DNA of 56,318 nt from Desulfotomaculum sp. Lineage in GTDB: Bacteria > Bacillota > Desulfotomaculia > Desulfotomaculales > Desulfohalotomaculaceae. The DNA lies in contig JACDOL010000006.1 of NCBI GenBank assembly GCA_017656165.1, forward strand, positions 1 to 56,318. The letters are read 5' to 3'. Below are positions 5,766 through 52,752 of the stretch, one piece after another. Position 1 is the stretch's first letter. Every line of letters begins with the position of its first letter. The translations under genes were made by a program, and so were the position numbers. Under the pieces are notes generated by a model. That model made no database searches, was not told where the DNA came from, and worked only from the letters and a program-made list of their open reading frames with translations.

Positions 5766-5868
5766 ACTAATTTTACGCCTGCCAGCCTTTACCTGTCAAT
5801 TAAATAGGGTAATAACATTTCAAATTTGATGGTGTTTTAGGTTAAAATTATGATAGGGGGTGAACCCT

Positions 5869-7728
5869 TTGCATTTAGAAGAAAAGTTGAAGCATATTCC
5901 TGACAAACCGGGTGTATATATCTACCGCGATGCCGGTGGAAATGTAATATACGTGGGTAAAGCAAAATCGCTAAAAAACAGGGTGCGGTCATATTTTCAA
6001 AAGAGCACCCATCAATCACCTAAAACGCGCACCATGGTGGGGCGGATTGCTGATATGGAGTATATTGTCACTGATTCGGAAGTAGAAGCGCTGATACTGG
6101 AATGCAACTTAATTAAAGAGCACCGGCCCCGTTACAATGTTCTGCTTAAAGACGACAAAACATACCCTTATATTAAAGTTACTTTAGATGAAGATTACCC
6201 GCGGGTTTTGACCACCCGCAGGCTGGTAAAAGACGGTTCCCGTTATTTCGGACCTTATACCCAGGCAGGGGCCATGAATGAGACTTTAAGGCTTTTAAAG
6301 CGCTTGTTTCCATTCCGCACCTGCACCAGCAGGCAGTTTGCCAACCGCAGCCGGCCCTGCTTAAACTACCATATCAAACGCTGCCAGGGGCCGTGTACTA
6401 AAAACGTTGACAGGGAACAGTACAGGGAAACTATCAATGAAATAATATTGTTTTTAGAAGGCCGCCAGGAGGATTTAATTAAACGCCTGGAAGAAAGAAT
6501 GCACCGGGCAGCAGAAAAATTGGATTTTGAACGGGCAGCTGAACTGCGGGACCAGCTGCAGGCGGTGAAGAAAGTTACCGAAAGGCAGAAAATAGTTTCT
6601 TCCGGCTTGGAAGACCAGGATGTCATTGCCATGGCCAGGGGACAGGGAGAAGTATGCGTAATGGTTTTCTTTATTAGAGGAGGTAAGCTCATTGGCCGGG
6701 AACATCACCTGCTGAAAAATACAGATGACTTAAGCCGCGGCGAGATTATGAAAGGTTTTCTAAAGCAGTACTATGCCCAGGTGGACTTCATTCCCCGTTA
6801 TGTACTGCTGTCTGAAGACATAGGAGAAGAAGCAGAACTGGTAAGCAGCTGGCTGTCTCAAAAACGCGGGTCTAAAGCGGTGGTGAAAACTCCTAAGCGG
6901 GGGGAAAAGGCCAGGTTAGTGGAAATGGCCGGGAAAAATGCCCTGCTGGTGCTGCAGCAGATGGAAACGGAAAGCCGGCTGAAGAGGGACAAATTGGATA
7001 ATGCAGCCGCTGAACTGGCCGGGGCCCTTGGGCTTTCCAAGCCGCCATACCGGATGGAATGCTATGATATTTCCAATATCCAGGGGGCTGAACAGGTGGC
7101 CTCCATGGTGGTTTTTGAAGAAGGTAAGCCCAGCAAGAGCCAGTATCGGCGTTTTAAAATTAAAACCGTTGAAGGACCCAACGATTTTGCTGCCATGCAG
7201 GAGGTTATTCACCGCCGCTTTTCACGGGGTCTGGAAGAGAGGAAACTTCTCAGTACCGGCCAAATCTCCAGCAAAGAGGCTAAATTTCACCGCTTTCCCG
7301 ACCTGGTTATCATTGACGGGGGTAAGGGGCAGCTGAATGCTGCCCGGGATGTAATGAAACTGCTGGGGGTGGGTGACATACCGACTTTCGGCCTGGCCAA
7401 GGAAGAAGAGCTGCTTTTCGCGGAAGGCCAAAGTGAGCCCATAGTTCTGCCGAGAAACTCCCAGGCTTTATACCTGGTACAGAGACTGCGGGACGAGGCC
7501 CATCGTTTTGCGGTGACCTATCACCGGAACTTGAGAACAAAAAGAAATTTAAAGTCGCTGTTAGATGAAATAGAAGGAGTTGGGCCGGTACGCAAAAAAG
7601 CCCTGTTAAAGGAGTTTAAGAATATAGAGGGAATAAAAAAGGCGGAACTGCATGAACTGGAAAAAGTGCCGGGAATGAACAAAAAAGCTGCCCGGGCGGT
7701 GTACCACTATTTCCGGCAGCAGGGGTAA
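5869..7728 (+). CDS. uvrC: UvrABC excinuclease subunit C
   Basis: Nuclease that makes both incisions in nucleotide excision repair. Domains in order: GIY-YIG endonuclease (about 10-90, PGVYIYRDAGG and YVGKAKSLKNRVRSYF), cysteine-containing linker, UVR motif (about 200-235), RNase H-like nuclease (YDISNIQG and VIIDGGKGQL), and C-terminal helix-hairpin-helix pair (VGPVRKKALLKEF). An upstream in-frame GTG at 5860 lies inside the ribosome site AGGGGGTGA (5855-5863); the TTG at 5869 is correctly spaced and gives the usual N-terminus, so I start there (619 aa). It is not adjacent to uvrA but is in the same neighbourhood. Confidence 0.97.
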   Translation: MHLEEKLKHIPDKPGVYIYRDAGGNVIYVGKAKSLKNRVRSYFQKSTHQSPKTRTMVGRIADMEYIVTDSEVEALILECNLIKEHRPRYNVLLKDDKTYPYIKVTLDEDYPRVLTTRRLVKDGSRYFGPYTQAGAMNETLRLLKRLFPFRTCTSRQFANRSRPCLNYHIKRCQGPCTKNVDREQYRETINEIILFLEGRQEDLIKRLEERMHRAAEKLDFERAAELRDQLQAVKKVTERQKIVSSGLEDQDVIAMARGQGEVCVMVFFIRGGKLIGREHHLLKNTDDLSRGEIMKGFLKQYYAQVDFIPRYVLLSEDIGEEAELVSSWLSQKRGSKAVVKTPKRGEKARLVEMAGKNALLVLQQMETESRLKRDKLDNAAAELAGALGLSKPPYRMECYDISNIQGAEQVASMVVFEEGKPSKSQYRRFKIKTVEGPNDFAAMQEVIHRRFSRGLEERKLLSTGQISSKEAKFHRFPDLVIIDGGKGQLNAARDVMKLLGVGDIPTFGLAKEEELLFAEGQSEPIVLPRNSQALYLVQRLRDEAHRFAVTYHRNLRTKRNLKSLLDEIEGVGPVRKKALLKEFKNIEGIKKAELHELEKVPGMNKKAARAVYHYFRQQG

Positions 7729-7771
7729 AGAACTTAGGATTCCATTATATGTGCCGGTGTATTTTCGGAGC

Positions 7772-7790
7772 GTAAATACCTTGGCAGTGG
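7772..7790. repeat. Partial copy (3' half) of a dispersed intergenic repeat
   Basis: GTAAATACCTTGGCAGTGG matches the 3' arm of the full element at 51214-51304. The 5' arm is absent here. It lies in the uvrC-HAD spacer. Confidence 0.45.
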
Positions 7791-7829
7791 TTGTAATCTC
7801 TGAATTCTTTTTAATTTAGGAGGTATAGT

Positions 7830-15052: not shown

Positions 15053-15084
15053 GGACTTGGCAGTGAGAGGGCCGAAGTTTTTTG
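15053..15084. repeat. Partial copy of the dispersed intergenic repeat
   Basis: ACTTGGCAGTGAGAGGGCCGAAG followed by a T-rich stretch resembles the 3' module of the element at 51214-51304 (CTTGGCGGTGATAAGACCGAAG plus T-run). It lies 80 nt before rpoN. Confidence 0.4.
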
Positions 15085-15164
15085 TTCCGTTGGATTGGAG
15101 ATAGAAATTTTCCTGTCAGTGCATTGTTATTGCAGTGCTGGATAAACTAAGGGAGTGAACGGGG

Positions 15165-26657: not shown

Positions 26658-27008
26658 GGGGGCGACTGGTTTCGACGGGGGAAACGGTGGCAAGAGGAGC
26701 GAGCCGGGATCCCACTTACCCGTAAAACAGTGGACTAAACACAAATGCCGAAGAAAATTACGCTTTAGCTGCTTAATTGACGCAGCTGCCTCCTACCTGT
26801 GCCGGGCCCGTGGCACGGGATAGGGGGACACACTAACGGGCTGGCTTAATCCCAATTCTCGGAGGGATTAAGCGAGACTTATCGAGATAGTCGTATCGAA
26901 GGCTGGTTGTGGTCGTCGGTACGGTGAAAGCAAAACACAACCTACGCTCGTAGAGCCTGTTGTGGCTGTTCCTCCGGACGGTGGGTTCGAATCCCCCCGC
27001 CTCCACCA
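26658..27008 (+). ncRNA. ssrA: Transfer-messenger RNA (tmRNA)
   Basis: The 5' end GGGGGCGACTGGTTTCGACG pairs through its acceptor stem with the 3' end CGCCTCCACCA; GGTTCGAATCC forms the T-loop. The 351-nt length is normal. The tag reading frame ends ...NTNAEENYALAA followed by TAA; the first residues depend on the resume codon, which in this frame would be CTA or AAC, not the usual Ala codon. The RNA rescues stalled ribosomes together with SmpB, encoded just upstream. Its tRNA-like 3' end is a frequent integration site for mobile islands. Confidence 0.97.
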
Positions 27009-46098: not shown

Positions 46099-46127
46099 GT
46101 TAGGTGATAGACCGAAGCTTTTTTTAC
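46099..46127. repeat. Short partial copy of the dispersed intergenic repeat
   Basis: TTAGGTGATAGACCGAAGC plus seven Ts, matching the last module of the element at 51214-51304. It lies just beyond the stop of the flavin reductase gene, overlapping its very end. Confidence 0.4.
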
Positions 46128-48676: not shown

Positions 48677-49240
48677 ATGAAGCATGTAAAATGGATTTTA
48701 GCTGTGCTGGTGTTTACCTTATCTTTATGTGGAATTACATATAATTACTATATTCAGCAGCAGTATGCTAAAGAATTAATTAGGTTTCACGTTATTGCCA
48801 ACAGTAATACAATTGAGGACCAAAGTTTAAAACTGCAGGTAAGGGATGCGGTGATAAAAGAAATGAAAGAAAGGTTTGCCCATGTTGATAATAAAGAAGA
48901 TGCGGTGATTGTTACAGAGAACAGCATGGATGATATTAAAGAAATTGCAGAAAGGGAAATTGCCAGGGCAGGGAAAGATTATGAGGTGAAAGTGGCGCTG
49001 GGCAGGTACCCTTTTCCCACCAAAACATACGGCGATATCACCCTGCCGGCAGGAAATTACCAGGCACTGAGGGTGGTAATTGGAGAAGGAAAGGGTCACA
49101 ACTGGTGGTGTGTACTTTTCCCGCCGCTGTGTTTTGTTGATGGTGTGCAGACGGTAAAGGAAGGTAAAGCTAAAGGGGTTAAAGTTTTTGAAAAAGATAA
49201 TATAGAATTTCGCATTCGTTCGCTGGAATTCTTAAAATAA
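48677..49240 (+). CDS. spoIIR: Stage II sporulation protein R
   Basis: Forespore-made signal that activates the SpoIIGA protease so that pro-sigma-E is processed in the mother cell. An N-terminal signal/membrane helix (about 5-25) is followed by the family core RFHVIANSNTIEDQSLKLQV (about 36-55) and the near-invariant GNYQALRVVIGEGKGHNWWC and VLFPPLCFVD. 187 aa. It shows that the organism has the endospore programme. Its ribosome site is part of a terminator-like hairpin (48625-48671), so leftover transcripts from upstream should not be translated (inference). Confidence 0.95.
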   Translation: MKHVKWILAVLVFTLSLCGITYNYYIQQQYAKELIRFHVIANSNTIEDQSLKLQVRDAVIKEMKERFAHVDNKEDAVIVTENSMDDIKEIAEREIARAGKDYEVKVALGRYPFPTKTYGDITLPAGNYQALRVVIGEGKGHNWWCVLFPPLCFVDGVQTVKEGKAKGVKVFEKDNIEFRIRSLEFLK

Positions 49241-49268
49241 ACCTGGTCCAAAAGGGTCAGGTTTTTTT
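49239..49268 (+). terminator. Terminator of spoIIR
   Basis: AACCTGGTCC-AAAA-GGGTCAGGTT (two G-U pairs) with a run of seven Ts. Confidence 0.85.
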
Positions 49269-49277
49269 ATTATTCAG

Positions 49278-49324
49278 CCAAGGTATTTACCGGAGAAAAC
49301 GATAGCCGGCAAATTAAAAGAACC
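49278..49324. repeat. Partial copy (5' half) of the dispersed intergenic repeat
   Basis: CCAAGGTATTTACCGGAGAA and ACGATAGCCGGCAAATTAAA match the 5' part of the element at 51214-51304 with only two or three differences over about 45 nt. The 3' arm is missing. Confidence 0.7.
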
Positions 49325-49389
49325 ACTTATATAGAAAAGGCACATTTGGCAATGCTAGTAAAAATTAAGCAATAGCAAGGAGGATCTGC

Positions 49390-50807: not shown

Positions 50808-51149
50808 ATGAAAGACATCACCATCAGTGAAGAATTAAAACAAAAGGCCAAGGAACTGGGGACTCTGATCACTAAAACTGACGAGTACAAAGAGGTAAAA
50901 AGCAAGCAGGAAGTAATGTTTGAAAATGAAGAATCCATGCAGCTTCTGGCAGAGTTCAACAAGCTGCAGGCTCAGAATCATAAGAAACAGCAGGAGGGCC
51001 AGCTCACCCCCGGGGACATGAAGGCCATCGAGCAGGCCGAACTGAAAATGCTGGACAACCCTCTTATTAAAGAATTTCATGAGTCACAGGTTAAATTTCA
51101 GCGCCTTTTAAATGAAGTTATGAAAATAGTTGTGGAATCTGCCAGGTAA
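50808..51149 (+). CDS. YlbF/YmcA-family protein
   Basis: Helical protein of the YlbF/YmcA (DUF964) family. In Bacillus members form a complex with YaaT that affects RNase Y, sporulation, competence and biofilm. The core FNKLQAQNHKKQQEGQLTPGDM region and terminal helices are recognisable. 113 aa. ATG 50808 is 8 nt after AGGGAGG; a TTG at 50802 would be too close. Strong terminator directly behind. The assignment is by shape and motif only. Confidence 0.78.
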   Translation: MKDITISEELKQKAKELGTLITKTDEYKEVKSKQEVMFENEESMQLLAEFNKLQAQNHKKQQEGQLTPGDMKAIEQAELKMLDNPLIKEFHESQVKFQRLLNEVMKIVVESAR

Positions 51150-51150
51150 G

Positions 51151-51184
51151 AAAAGTGCCTTCAATTCGAAGGCACTTTTTTTCA
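51151..51184 (+). terminator. Terminator behind the YlbF-family gene
   Basis: AAAAGTGCCTTC-AATTC-GAAGGCACTTTTTTT. Confidence 0.93.
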
Positions 51185-51213
51185 TATTAAGAAAGTATAT
51201 GTTTTGACGCCTG

Positions 51214-51304
51214 CAAGGTATTTACCGGGGAAACGATAGCCGGCAAATCAAAAGAACAGCAGAGTAAATACCTTGGCGGTGATAAGACCGAAGGTTTTTG
51301 TTTT
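51214..51304. repeat. Full copy of a dispersed structured intergenic repeat
   Basis: CAAGGTATTTAC (51214-51225) and its exact complement GTAAATACCTTG (51264-51275) enclose CGGGGAAACGATAGCCGG with A-rich single strand. A second small hairpin (CGGT/ACCG) and a T-run (to about 51304) follow. Partial copies lie at 49278, 46099, 15053 and 7772. It matches no riboswitch I know. The remaining gene-free stretch to 51574 is AT-rich; I see no clear promoter in it. Confidence 0.72.
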
Positions 51305-51573
51305 ACTGCAATTATGTACGCTGTGTATAGACTTTTGTACACGTAATGCGGCGTTTGTCAAGAAGTAAATTATTAAAACAAAATTAGAAAATGCTGCTAA
51401 GAATAAGCATTGTGAAGATATCAACAGAAAATGCTCTAATTTTAGAATTTTGTTAATTGCTTTTTATTATAAAAAGTGGTAGTTTACCCTATAAAGATAT
51501 GTATCCGTGCTGAGTGGACAAAGGCCGGCCAGGTACATACGAAAAAGAAACATAAATAGGGGGAGTTGTGGTA

Positions 51574-52752
51574 ATGAAGGTCAGGAAATTTCTAGCACTT
51601 ATGGCTGCAGTTCTGCTGGCAGCTGTGGCACTGGTTGGCTGCGGCGGTGGCGGTGAAAAGGCCAGCAGTGAGGATGCTGCCAAGGACTCCGATGTAATTA
51701 AAATCGGGGTTTATGAACCATTGACCGGCATCAATGCTGCCGGCGGAGAAATGACACTGGACGGTATTGAGCTGGCGAATAAACTATACCCGGAAGTGCT
51801 GGGTAAAAAGGTTGAACTGGTGGTAGCAGATAACAAGAGTGAAAAGCAGGAAGCGGCCAATGCAGTGGCCAGGCTGGTGAATGAAGGTGTAGACGTTATC
51901 ATCGGCAGCTACGGAAGTTCTCTGTCCATGGCCGGCGGTCCTGTTGCTGAAGAGGCCGGGGTTCCTGTAATCGGTTGTTCACCAACTAACCCGCTGGTGA
52001 CTAAGGGCAATGATTACTACTTCCGTGTTTGCTTTATTGATCCTTTCCAAGGCACTGTAATGGCTAATTATGCCGTTAATACCTTGGGTGCAAAAACTGC
52101 TGCTATTATTCAGGACGTTCAGCAGGACTACTCTGTTGGTCTCAGCAAGTATTTTGAGGAGTCCTTCAAAGAGCTTACCGGTGATGAAAATGCCATTGTG
52201 GCCAAGGTAAACTATAACACCGGTGACAAGGATTTCTCAGCACAGCTCACTGAAGTGAAGGATAAGAATCCTGACGTAATTTTTGCACCTGGCAACTTCA
52301 CAGAATGCGGTATCCTGGTGGAAAGAGCCAGGGAGCTGGGGATTAAAGCTCCAATCCTGGGCGGCGACACATGGGAAGCTAAAGAATTCCTGAACCGTGT
52401 TGGTGACTTAGAAGACATTTATTTCAGCACTCACTTTACTGCTGAAGAACCTGTAACTGAGGTTTCCGAAACATTCTTAAACGAATTCAAAAAAGAATAC
52501 CCGGATAAGCAGGTTAACGCTTTTGCTGCCTTAGGTTTTGACTCATACCTGCTGGCATTGGATGCCATTGAAAGGGCCGGTTCCACCGATCATGAAAAAA
52601 TTAAGGAAGAACTGGCCAAGACAAGCGGTTTCAAGGGTGCTACCGGTATTATTACCCTCGATGAAAACGGTGACGCCACAAAGACTGCTATTATCAAGAA
52701 GGTAGAAGACGGTAAGTTTGTTTACGAAGCCAAGGTTGATCCGCAAAATTAG
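51574..52752 (+). CDS. livK: Branched-chain amino acid ABC transporter, substrate-binding lipoprotein
   Basis: Extracellular Leu/Ile/Val-type binding protein (periplasmic-binding fold I). It has a lipoprotein signal with lipobox LVGC (Cys24), then VIKIGVYEPLTGINAAGGEM and GYxxxx-type ligand regions DVIIGSYGSSLSMAGGPVAE. 392 aa from ATG 51574, 9 nt after AGGGGGAG; GTG 51568 is too close. First gene of the livKHMGF operon. Other members bind benzoate, urea or amides; the real ligand is not proven. Confidence 0.92.
   Translation: MKVRKFLALMAAVLLAAVALVGCGGGGEKASSEDAAKDSDVIKIGVYEPLTGINAAGGEMTLDGIELANKLYPEVLGKKVELVVADNKSEKQEAANAVARLVNEGVDVIIGSYGSSLSMAGGPVAEEAGVPVIGCSPTNPLVTKGNDYYFRVCFIDPFQGTVMANYAVNTLGAKTAAIIQDVQQDYSVGLSKYFEESFKELTGDENAIVAKVNYNTGDKDFSAQLTEVKDKNPDVIFAPGNFTECGILVERARELGIKAPILGGDTWEAKEFLNRVGDLEDIYFSTHFTAEEPVTEVSETFLNEFKKEYPDKQVNAFAALGFDSYLLALDAIERAGSTDHEKIKEELAKTSGFKGATGIITLDENGDATKTAIIKKVEDGKFVYEAKVDPQN

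Follow-up and report, generated by a model that had tools for sequence, protein, structure and literature searches.

A dispersed palindromic repeat of a Desulfotomaculum genome, situated mostly behind intrinsic terminators and sharing a folded core with other genera

The repeat upstream of a livK-like gene

The window, by which is meant the whole stretch of 56,318 nucleotides that was analysed, is contig 6 of a Desulfotomaculum genome (G000) of 2,293,979 bases in 169 contigs. At the locus described here, a gene with a Com_YlbF domain match is followed by an intrinsic terminator, and directly 3' of the hairpin and T-run of this terminator begins a copy of a short palindromic repeat; another 264 bases lie between the end of the copy and the start of the open reading frame of a co-oriented livK-like gene (Table 1). 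The terminator is also present in G001, a genome of the same genus that is free of the element. A simple terminator scan of the window did not report it, probably because base pairing in its stem can reach into the T-run. The window copy matches an HMM built from long copies of the element with E values of 1.4e-11 and 1.5e-8, and folded as RNA it reaches -27.7 kcal/mol (z -2.66). A consensus scan of positions 51100-51600 returned four promoter-like matches where 1.6 were expected, none of which falls in the left end of the element. Rfam searches of the window, of ten loci and of six further loci from the leader search gave no family that exceeds its gathering score over the element.

A preliminary description of this DNA had taken the window copy for a full element with a perfect 12-bp stem, and had listed four partial copies elsewhere in the window. 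The stem was confirmed as an exact inverted repeat; the 18 nt quoted as the sequence enclosed by it are the beginning of a loop that measures 38 nt as a whole. The copy proved to be a short form with an internal deletion; in long copies elsewhere in the genome the middle of the element is about 100 nt longer. The 5' half placed at 49278-49324 is a true copy, and it sits 3' of a terminator-like hairpin, read in the sequence at 49240-49268, of a spoIIR-like gene (Spore_II_R, 48677-49240). The 3' module at 7772-7790 is also real and bigger than had been claimed: it is clear by eye from about 7747, and the start of the HMM match falls inside the open reading frame 5860-7728. Two other 3' modules, at 15053-15084 and 46099-46127, were not established, the first giving a non-significant HMM match and the second none at E <= 20. 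Across the window, the right arm has four matches against 0.13 expected, and the 22-nt 3' tail, at up to three mismatches, occurs once, at 51278. The element as such is real and beyond chance. Elsewhere in the window, a tmRNA gene lies at 26658-27008 (Rfam RF00023, 206 bits); in G002, another genome of the same genus, one long copy (L073) lies less than 1.5 kb from a partial tmRNA match.

Table 1. Copies and parts of the element in the window, and regulatory leaders followed by copies in other stretches of the genome.
Feature	Position	Strand	Remarks
Intrinsic terminator of the upstream YlbF-family gene	51155..51182	+	8-bp hairpin and 7 T, read in the sequence
Short-form element copy	51187..51304	+	left end and left arm 51187-51252; right arm and 3' tail 51260-51304
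Terminal stem, left arm	51214..51225	+	exact 12-bp inverted repeat
Terminal stem, right arm	51264..51275	+	exact 12-bp inverted repeat with 51214..51225
Conserved right end GCGGTGATAAGACCGAAGGTTTTT, T-run last	51276..51299	+	consensus of 56 right ends fades past the T-run
Second copy, 5' part, 3'-truncated	49262..49326	+	HMM E 9.5e-13
Long-form copy, 3' part, 5'-truncated	7657..7814	+	HMM E 9e-14
Possible 3'-tail remnant, not significant	15056..15088	+	HMM E 1.7
Possible 3'-tail remnant	46099..46127	+	sequence reading only; no HMM recovery at E <= 20
T-box leaders (Rfam)	L178 1213-1450; L208 1247-1474		copies then at L178 1472 and L208 1518
Glycine riboswitch (Rfam)	L178 5338-5523		copy then at L178 5563
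PyrR sites (Rfam)	L175 1407-1510 and 658-758		copies then at L175 1512 and 780

Copies in the genome and their position behind terminators

About a hundred whole or partial copies of the element are present in the genome. BLAST searches, in each of which 40 first-look candidates were scored and which therefore give lower bounds, returned at least 44 genome matches for the window copy (itself included) and at least 47 for a longer copy. Patterns of the two arms, at up to three mismatches, occur 47 times (left) and 32 times (right), and the reversed patterns do not occur. Merging of the arm and BLAST matches gave 93 places in the genome; the annotation comprises 99 element pieces in 82 stretches, four of the pieces being weak (<13 bits).

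Long copies measure about 180 nt and form one hairpin, the core of which is absent from the window copy. Pieces were classed by HMM coverage, which overlooks some arms, several 'one-armed' pieces showing the two-armed short junction: both arms are accompanied by the core in 9 of the 99 pieces and by part of it in 3, and are found without it in 19 (the type of the window copy); the left arm stands alone in 27, the right arm alone in 18 and the core alone in 2; all or part of the core is joined to the left arm in 10 and to the right arm in 11. By the same measure the right arm is missing from 37 pieces and the left arm from 29. The short junction, in which 3-6 nt separate AAAGAAC from the right arm, is nearly identical in 15 of the 99 pieces, which suggests that the short form may have spread as such; recurrent deletion is an alternative. 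One open frame of a long copy was compared with Pfam and NCBIfam and matched neither.

Conserved sequence reaches some 20-30 nt outside the 12-bp inverted arms, without a clear inverted match between the two sides. Immediately 5' of the left arm, 29 of 63 left ends match GTATAAGTTTTGA and five match GATTTGTGGATAACAACTA, each within 3 edits, and the others are intermediate or diverged. The second of these leaders is unlike the first and stands ahead of the same left arm (e.g. in L007, L010, L016, L030 and L190). The consensus of 56 right ends extends to GACC.AAGGTTTTT and then fades. T-runs occur at both ends of the element, the target is itself a T-run and the spacers of empty sites have diverged, so that a target-site duplication, if any, would hardly be recognisable.

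Copies in this genome are mostly sense-oriented and lie directly 3' of intrinsic terminators. A same-strand terminator is found within 70 nt upstream of 65 of the 95 testable copies, and an opposite-strand one for 25, as compared with 123 of 1640 random points, which were placed anywhere, coding DNA included, in stretches selected for holding the element. Downstream of the copies, terminators are found in nine cases on the same strand and in four on the opposite strand. When left-complete copies 3' of a same-strand gene are considered, 38 of 52 have a hairpin end at -10 to 25 nt from the first matched base; of 300 random points set in 30 gaps free of the element, 42 have a hairpin end in the same interval, and 18 of these gaps hold a terminator anywhere. 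Intergenic location, therefore, does not explain the adjacency to terminators. Copies truncated at the 5' end also have an upstream terminator in 20 of 28 cases. For 30 of the 95 copies no terminator was detected; by eye, some of these have a longer hairpin that was missed by the rule, and others have none.

Flanking genes, defined as in the terminator tests as open frames of at least 75 codons, are both on the strand of the element in 61 of the 87 pieces with two flanks, both on the opposite strand in 6, convergent in 10 and divergent in 10, which leaves the downstream gene on the element strand in 71 and opposite in 16. A flank is missing in 12 of the 99 pieces, and five overlap with an open frame. 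Some terminators with a copy behind them belong to regulatory leaders recognised by Rfam, among them T-box leaders and a glycine riboswitch (Table 1). In stretch L175 (658-817 and 1407-1745), the element, as a copy or as a remnant, comes closely after each of two PyrR binding sites.

Sites free of the element were found in relatives of the same genus. In G001, the sequence after the T-run is free of the element at three tested sites: the first T-box leader of Table 1, that of an ileS-like gene, the gcvT-like glycine-riboswitch leader (both gene names being read off the sequence without a search) and the window site. The element is absent from the same three sites in G002. At a fourth site, ahead of the second L178 copy, the comparison yielded no clear junction. 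What these sites show is presence versus absence of the element; no insertion event was observed.

A folded core shared with other genera

Other genera of the order have the core of the long form as well. A search pattern made for the 5' strand of the core recovered 37 stretches from the named genome collection, with titles that refer to Desulfotomaculum, Pelotomaculum, Desulfallas, Desulfopertinax, Syntrophopropionicum, Peptococcaceae, Clostridiales, Firmicutes or Bacillota; the core pattern had no match in viral contigs, and a strict left-arm pattern had none in the genome collection. Loci were chosen by the 5' strand of the core, the conservation of which is thus partly by construction, and the 3' strand was left free. 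A covariance model built from 34 cores gave matches within the order in 35 of 113 genomes and 18 of 55 genera (E <= 1e-3), and 27 of 398 genomes in a sample of the phylum (E <= 1e-5), 23 of which lie outside the order in several other families. Counts per genome range from no match in the same-genus G001 to a highest count of at least 34. The outer arms vary from group to group while the core persists. Folds of elements from different groups close as one long hairpin in five of six cases; in the sixth, from G011, the outer stem closes and the core is branched.

Pairing within the core was assessed in two alignments, one made without reference to structure (A1, 34 rows) and one fitted to the structure model (A2, 45 distinct rows). 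Related copies are not independent, so that the shuffle counts, like the signed-rank test of strand folding, overstate significance: in A1, 81.1% of cells pair as against 71.8% after shuffling, and double changes occupy 86 cells as against 38.0 shuffled and at most 19 with the partners slid. Further pair types show no excess in A1 (30 versus 28.8 shuffled, with 173 of 500 shuffles reaching 30). The corresponding figures in the structure-fitted A2 are 84.8% versus 73.3% for pairing, 111 versus 41.5 for double-change cells and 38 versus 32.0 for further pair types. Four internal loops consist of tandem GA/GA, jointly on both strands in 38, 34, 33 and 38 of the 45 rows; a fifth loop place has GA/GA in 20 of 45 rows, GC/GC in 13 and GG/CC in 3. 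The strongest indication that the GA steps form real pairs is this replacement by Watson-Crick pairs.

As to the strand that would fold, the + strand gives the better structure in 41 of 44 sequences (mean -33.1 versus -27.2 kcal/mol for the complement, RNA parameters). G-U pairs in the core number 38 versus 24 A-C pairs, a weak RNA-like signal, and the strand argument therefore leans mainly on the GA steps. Single RNA folds gave z values of -3.30, -2.58, -4.02 and -2.47 for four cores, 0.20 for the long copy of G000 itself and -0.60 for that of G011, and DNA folds of three cores were mixed. It is covariation, rather than the single folds, that carries the predicted structure. Judged from the alignments, the core is kept from genus to genus, with compensatory changes in its helices, inside outer arms that are unlike one another.

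Neighbouring genes and terminators were also recorded for these cores. Around 65 distinct cores in other genomes, the flanking genes are arranged as (+,+) in 28, (-,-) in 15, (-,+) in 11 and (+,-) in 3, one flank being missing in 8; a crude gene caller placed 13 of the 65 inside a long open frame. A terminator 20-260 nt upstream of the core was found on the same strand in 11 of 62 cases and on the opposite strand in 9 of 62, compared with 41 of 372 random points; long copies of G000 have one in the same interval in 8 of 13 (same strand) and 4 of 13 (opposite strand). A cruder rule, which asks for five T in a row at a distance of 30-110 nt on the upstream side, is satisfied by 7 of 65 cores in other genera. 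Terminator adjacency is thus strong in G000 and elsewhere weak at best.

A few related cores are interrupted or joined to other DNA. Those at about 4100 in L103 and at 5402-5468 in L129 are split by foreign sequence that lies within the hairpin or close to it, and the insert in L103 resembles, by eye, a possible transposase frame. In L119 (5137-5171) and L132 (118-152), which come from the same isolate by title, the core enters nearly identical unrelated sequence some 35 nt on, possibly a chimeric repeat.

Nature of the element and comparison with known repeats

Many bacteria are known to have small palindromic repeats, the families of which are usually confined to a single species or genus. 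MITEs, BOX, RUP, ERIC/RU and bcr1 are short, non-coding, palindromic, mostly intergenic, multi-copy and modular, with internal deletions, and the present element resembles them in all of these respects. It differs in that its core is kept across genera inside unlike outer arms, in its series of tandem GA steps, in its placement behind terminators in G000, and in that no autonomous partner was found among the Y1 transposases and group II maturases searched. Palindrome-associated elements derived from IS200/IS605 insert in a specific orientation 3' of a short target and contain hairpins, in which the element would resemble them, and they leave no clear duplication; here no parent insertion sequence was seen, and the single Y1 match of G000 (C49:290-649) has an in-frame stop. 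REP and BIME sequences are described in PMC3733652 as dispersed palindromes of 20-40 bp with GTAG or CGTC tags, mobilised by RAYTs and lying mainly between unidirectional or convergent genes, where they are plausibly transcribed. The element shares with them the dispersed palindromes and, as a possible mode, the recognition of a hairpin on one strand, but its long form reaches about 180 nt, neither tag appears in its left-end consensus, and Y1 genes do not track it. Group IIC introns, according to PMC7923331, insert downstream of a terminator stem-loop or another hairpin, so that the site preference of the element has a precedent; the likeness ends at this position, since the element has no Rfam group II match and G000 lacks the maturase domain. 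SPRITE, which belongs with the MITE-like repeats named above, is described in PMC10969869 as resembling a Rho-independent terminator. The genera considered here are absent from the excerpted text of a survey of stem-loop families (PMC2267715). Open-licence full text was searched for this repeat, for structured RNAs or small repeats of these bacteria and for insertion targeted to terminators; among the matches listed, no title or beginning of an abstract describes the repeat, and the family of folded mobile repeats is apparently undescribed so far. Its novelty is the conserved GA-marked core with exchanged arms, together with the terminator adjacency in G000; palindromic mobile repeats themselves are known.

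The many copies, the element-free sites in relatives, the patchy distribution and the lack of a recognisable gene, taken together, are best read as those of a non-autonomous, palindromic mobile element (MITE-like) that is moved in trans, a reading to which a probability of roughly 75% is given. A non-autonomous mobile element was among the proposals of the preliminary description, which had also reckoned with few genome copies and no covariation in case its matches were due to chance or simple duplication; dispersed copies and a covarying core were found. Under the mobile-element reading, an enzyme encoded elsewhere would recognise the hairpin on one strand and would insert copies into single-stranded or hairpin-adjacent DNA at the T-runs of terminators. 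Short forms would arise by internal deletion of the palindrome, and some of them, such as the window copy, would keep spreading. Effects on neighbouring genes, for example within the read-through leaders behind attenuators, would be secondary. A search of whole genomes for the mobiliser among the Y1 transposase and group II maturase (GIIM) families did not provide one. Y1 transposases are present in 96 of 113 genomes, that is in 32 of the 35 with the element and in 64 of the 78 without it, and were rejected as mobiliser because their presence does not track the element. The GIIM domain, found in 19 of the 35 genomes with the element and in 37 of the 78 without, fails in the same manner and is absent from G000. 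The only Y1 match of G001 likewise has an in-frame stop.

A more far-reaching version, put forward tentatively and rather doubtful as it stands, would see in these repeats mobile structured RNAs or one-strand DNA hairpins distributed across part of the phylum, with a GA-marked core that an enzyme recognises and outer arms that are refitted in each lineage, aimed in G000 at intrinsic terminators including those of attenuators.

Covarying helices, GA/GA loops with a GC/GC swap at the fifth place, the better folding of the + strand and the occurrence of the core in several other families of the phylum would also be expected of a multi-copy family of structured non-coding RNAs (small RNAs or leader RNAs) with a cellular function, the core being the functional part. 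Such a family is an unlikely explanation of the element, which occurs in a minority of the genomes of the order and not in G001 of the same genus, and many pieces of which (the left-only, both-arm and right-only classes) have no core. Moreover, the same covariation would result from a constraint on single-stranded DNA or a cruciform for the purpose of mobility, and the ratio of G-U to A-C pairs is only weakly RNA-like.

Still less probable is an RNA-mediated element, in which a transcript ending at the T-run would be inserted behind terminators by a reverse transcriptase, whether like that of group IIC introns or other. Sense orientation behind terminator hairpins is the type of site described for these introns in PMC7923331, and the 5'-truncated copies with upstream terminators agree with such a route. 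Copies without the right arm are, however, at least as common as those without the left arm; the search for reverse transcriptases, which covered GIIM, gave no match in G000 or in G001-G003; a comparison of the window and ten loci with Rfam revealed no group II intron; and the site preference is hardly shared by other genera. A cis-regulatory attenuator of downstream genes, in the window of livKHMGF, had been suggested, and the element does lie upstream of the livK-like gene and is oriented like it, with same-strand downstream genes prevalent among the copies, but this reading can practically be dismissed: the DNA from position 51315 onward is kept in G001 (79% match) and G002 (76%) without the element, and copies precede unrelated genes, some of them on the opposite strand.

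The structured core can be traced across genera by a covariance model despite changed outer arms and perhaps changed mobilisers, which opens to experiment the question whether mobility acts on the hairpin itself. A change in read-through caused by insertion behind terminators and attenuators is testable as well. For G000 itself, leaders may hold repeat DNA that is open to misreading as regulatory RNA.
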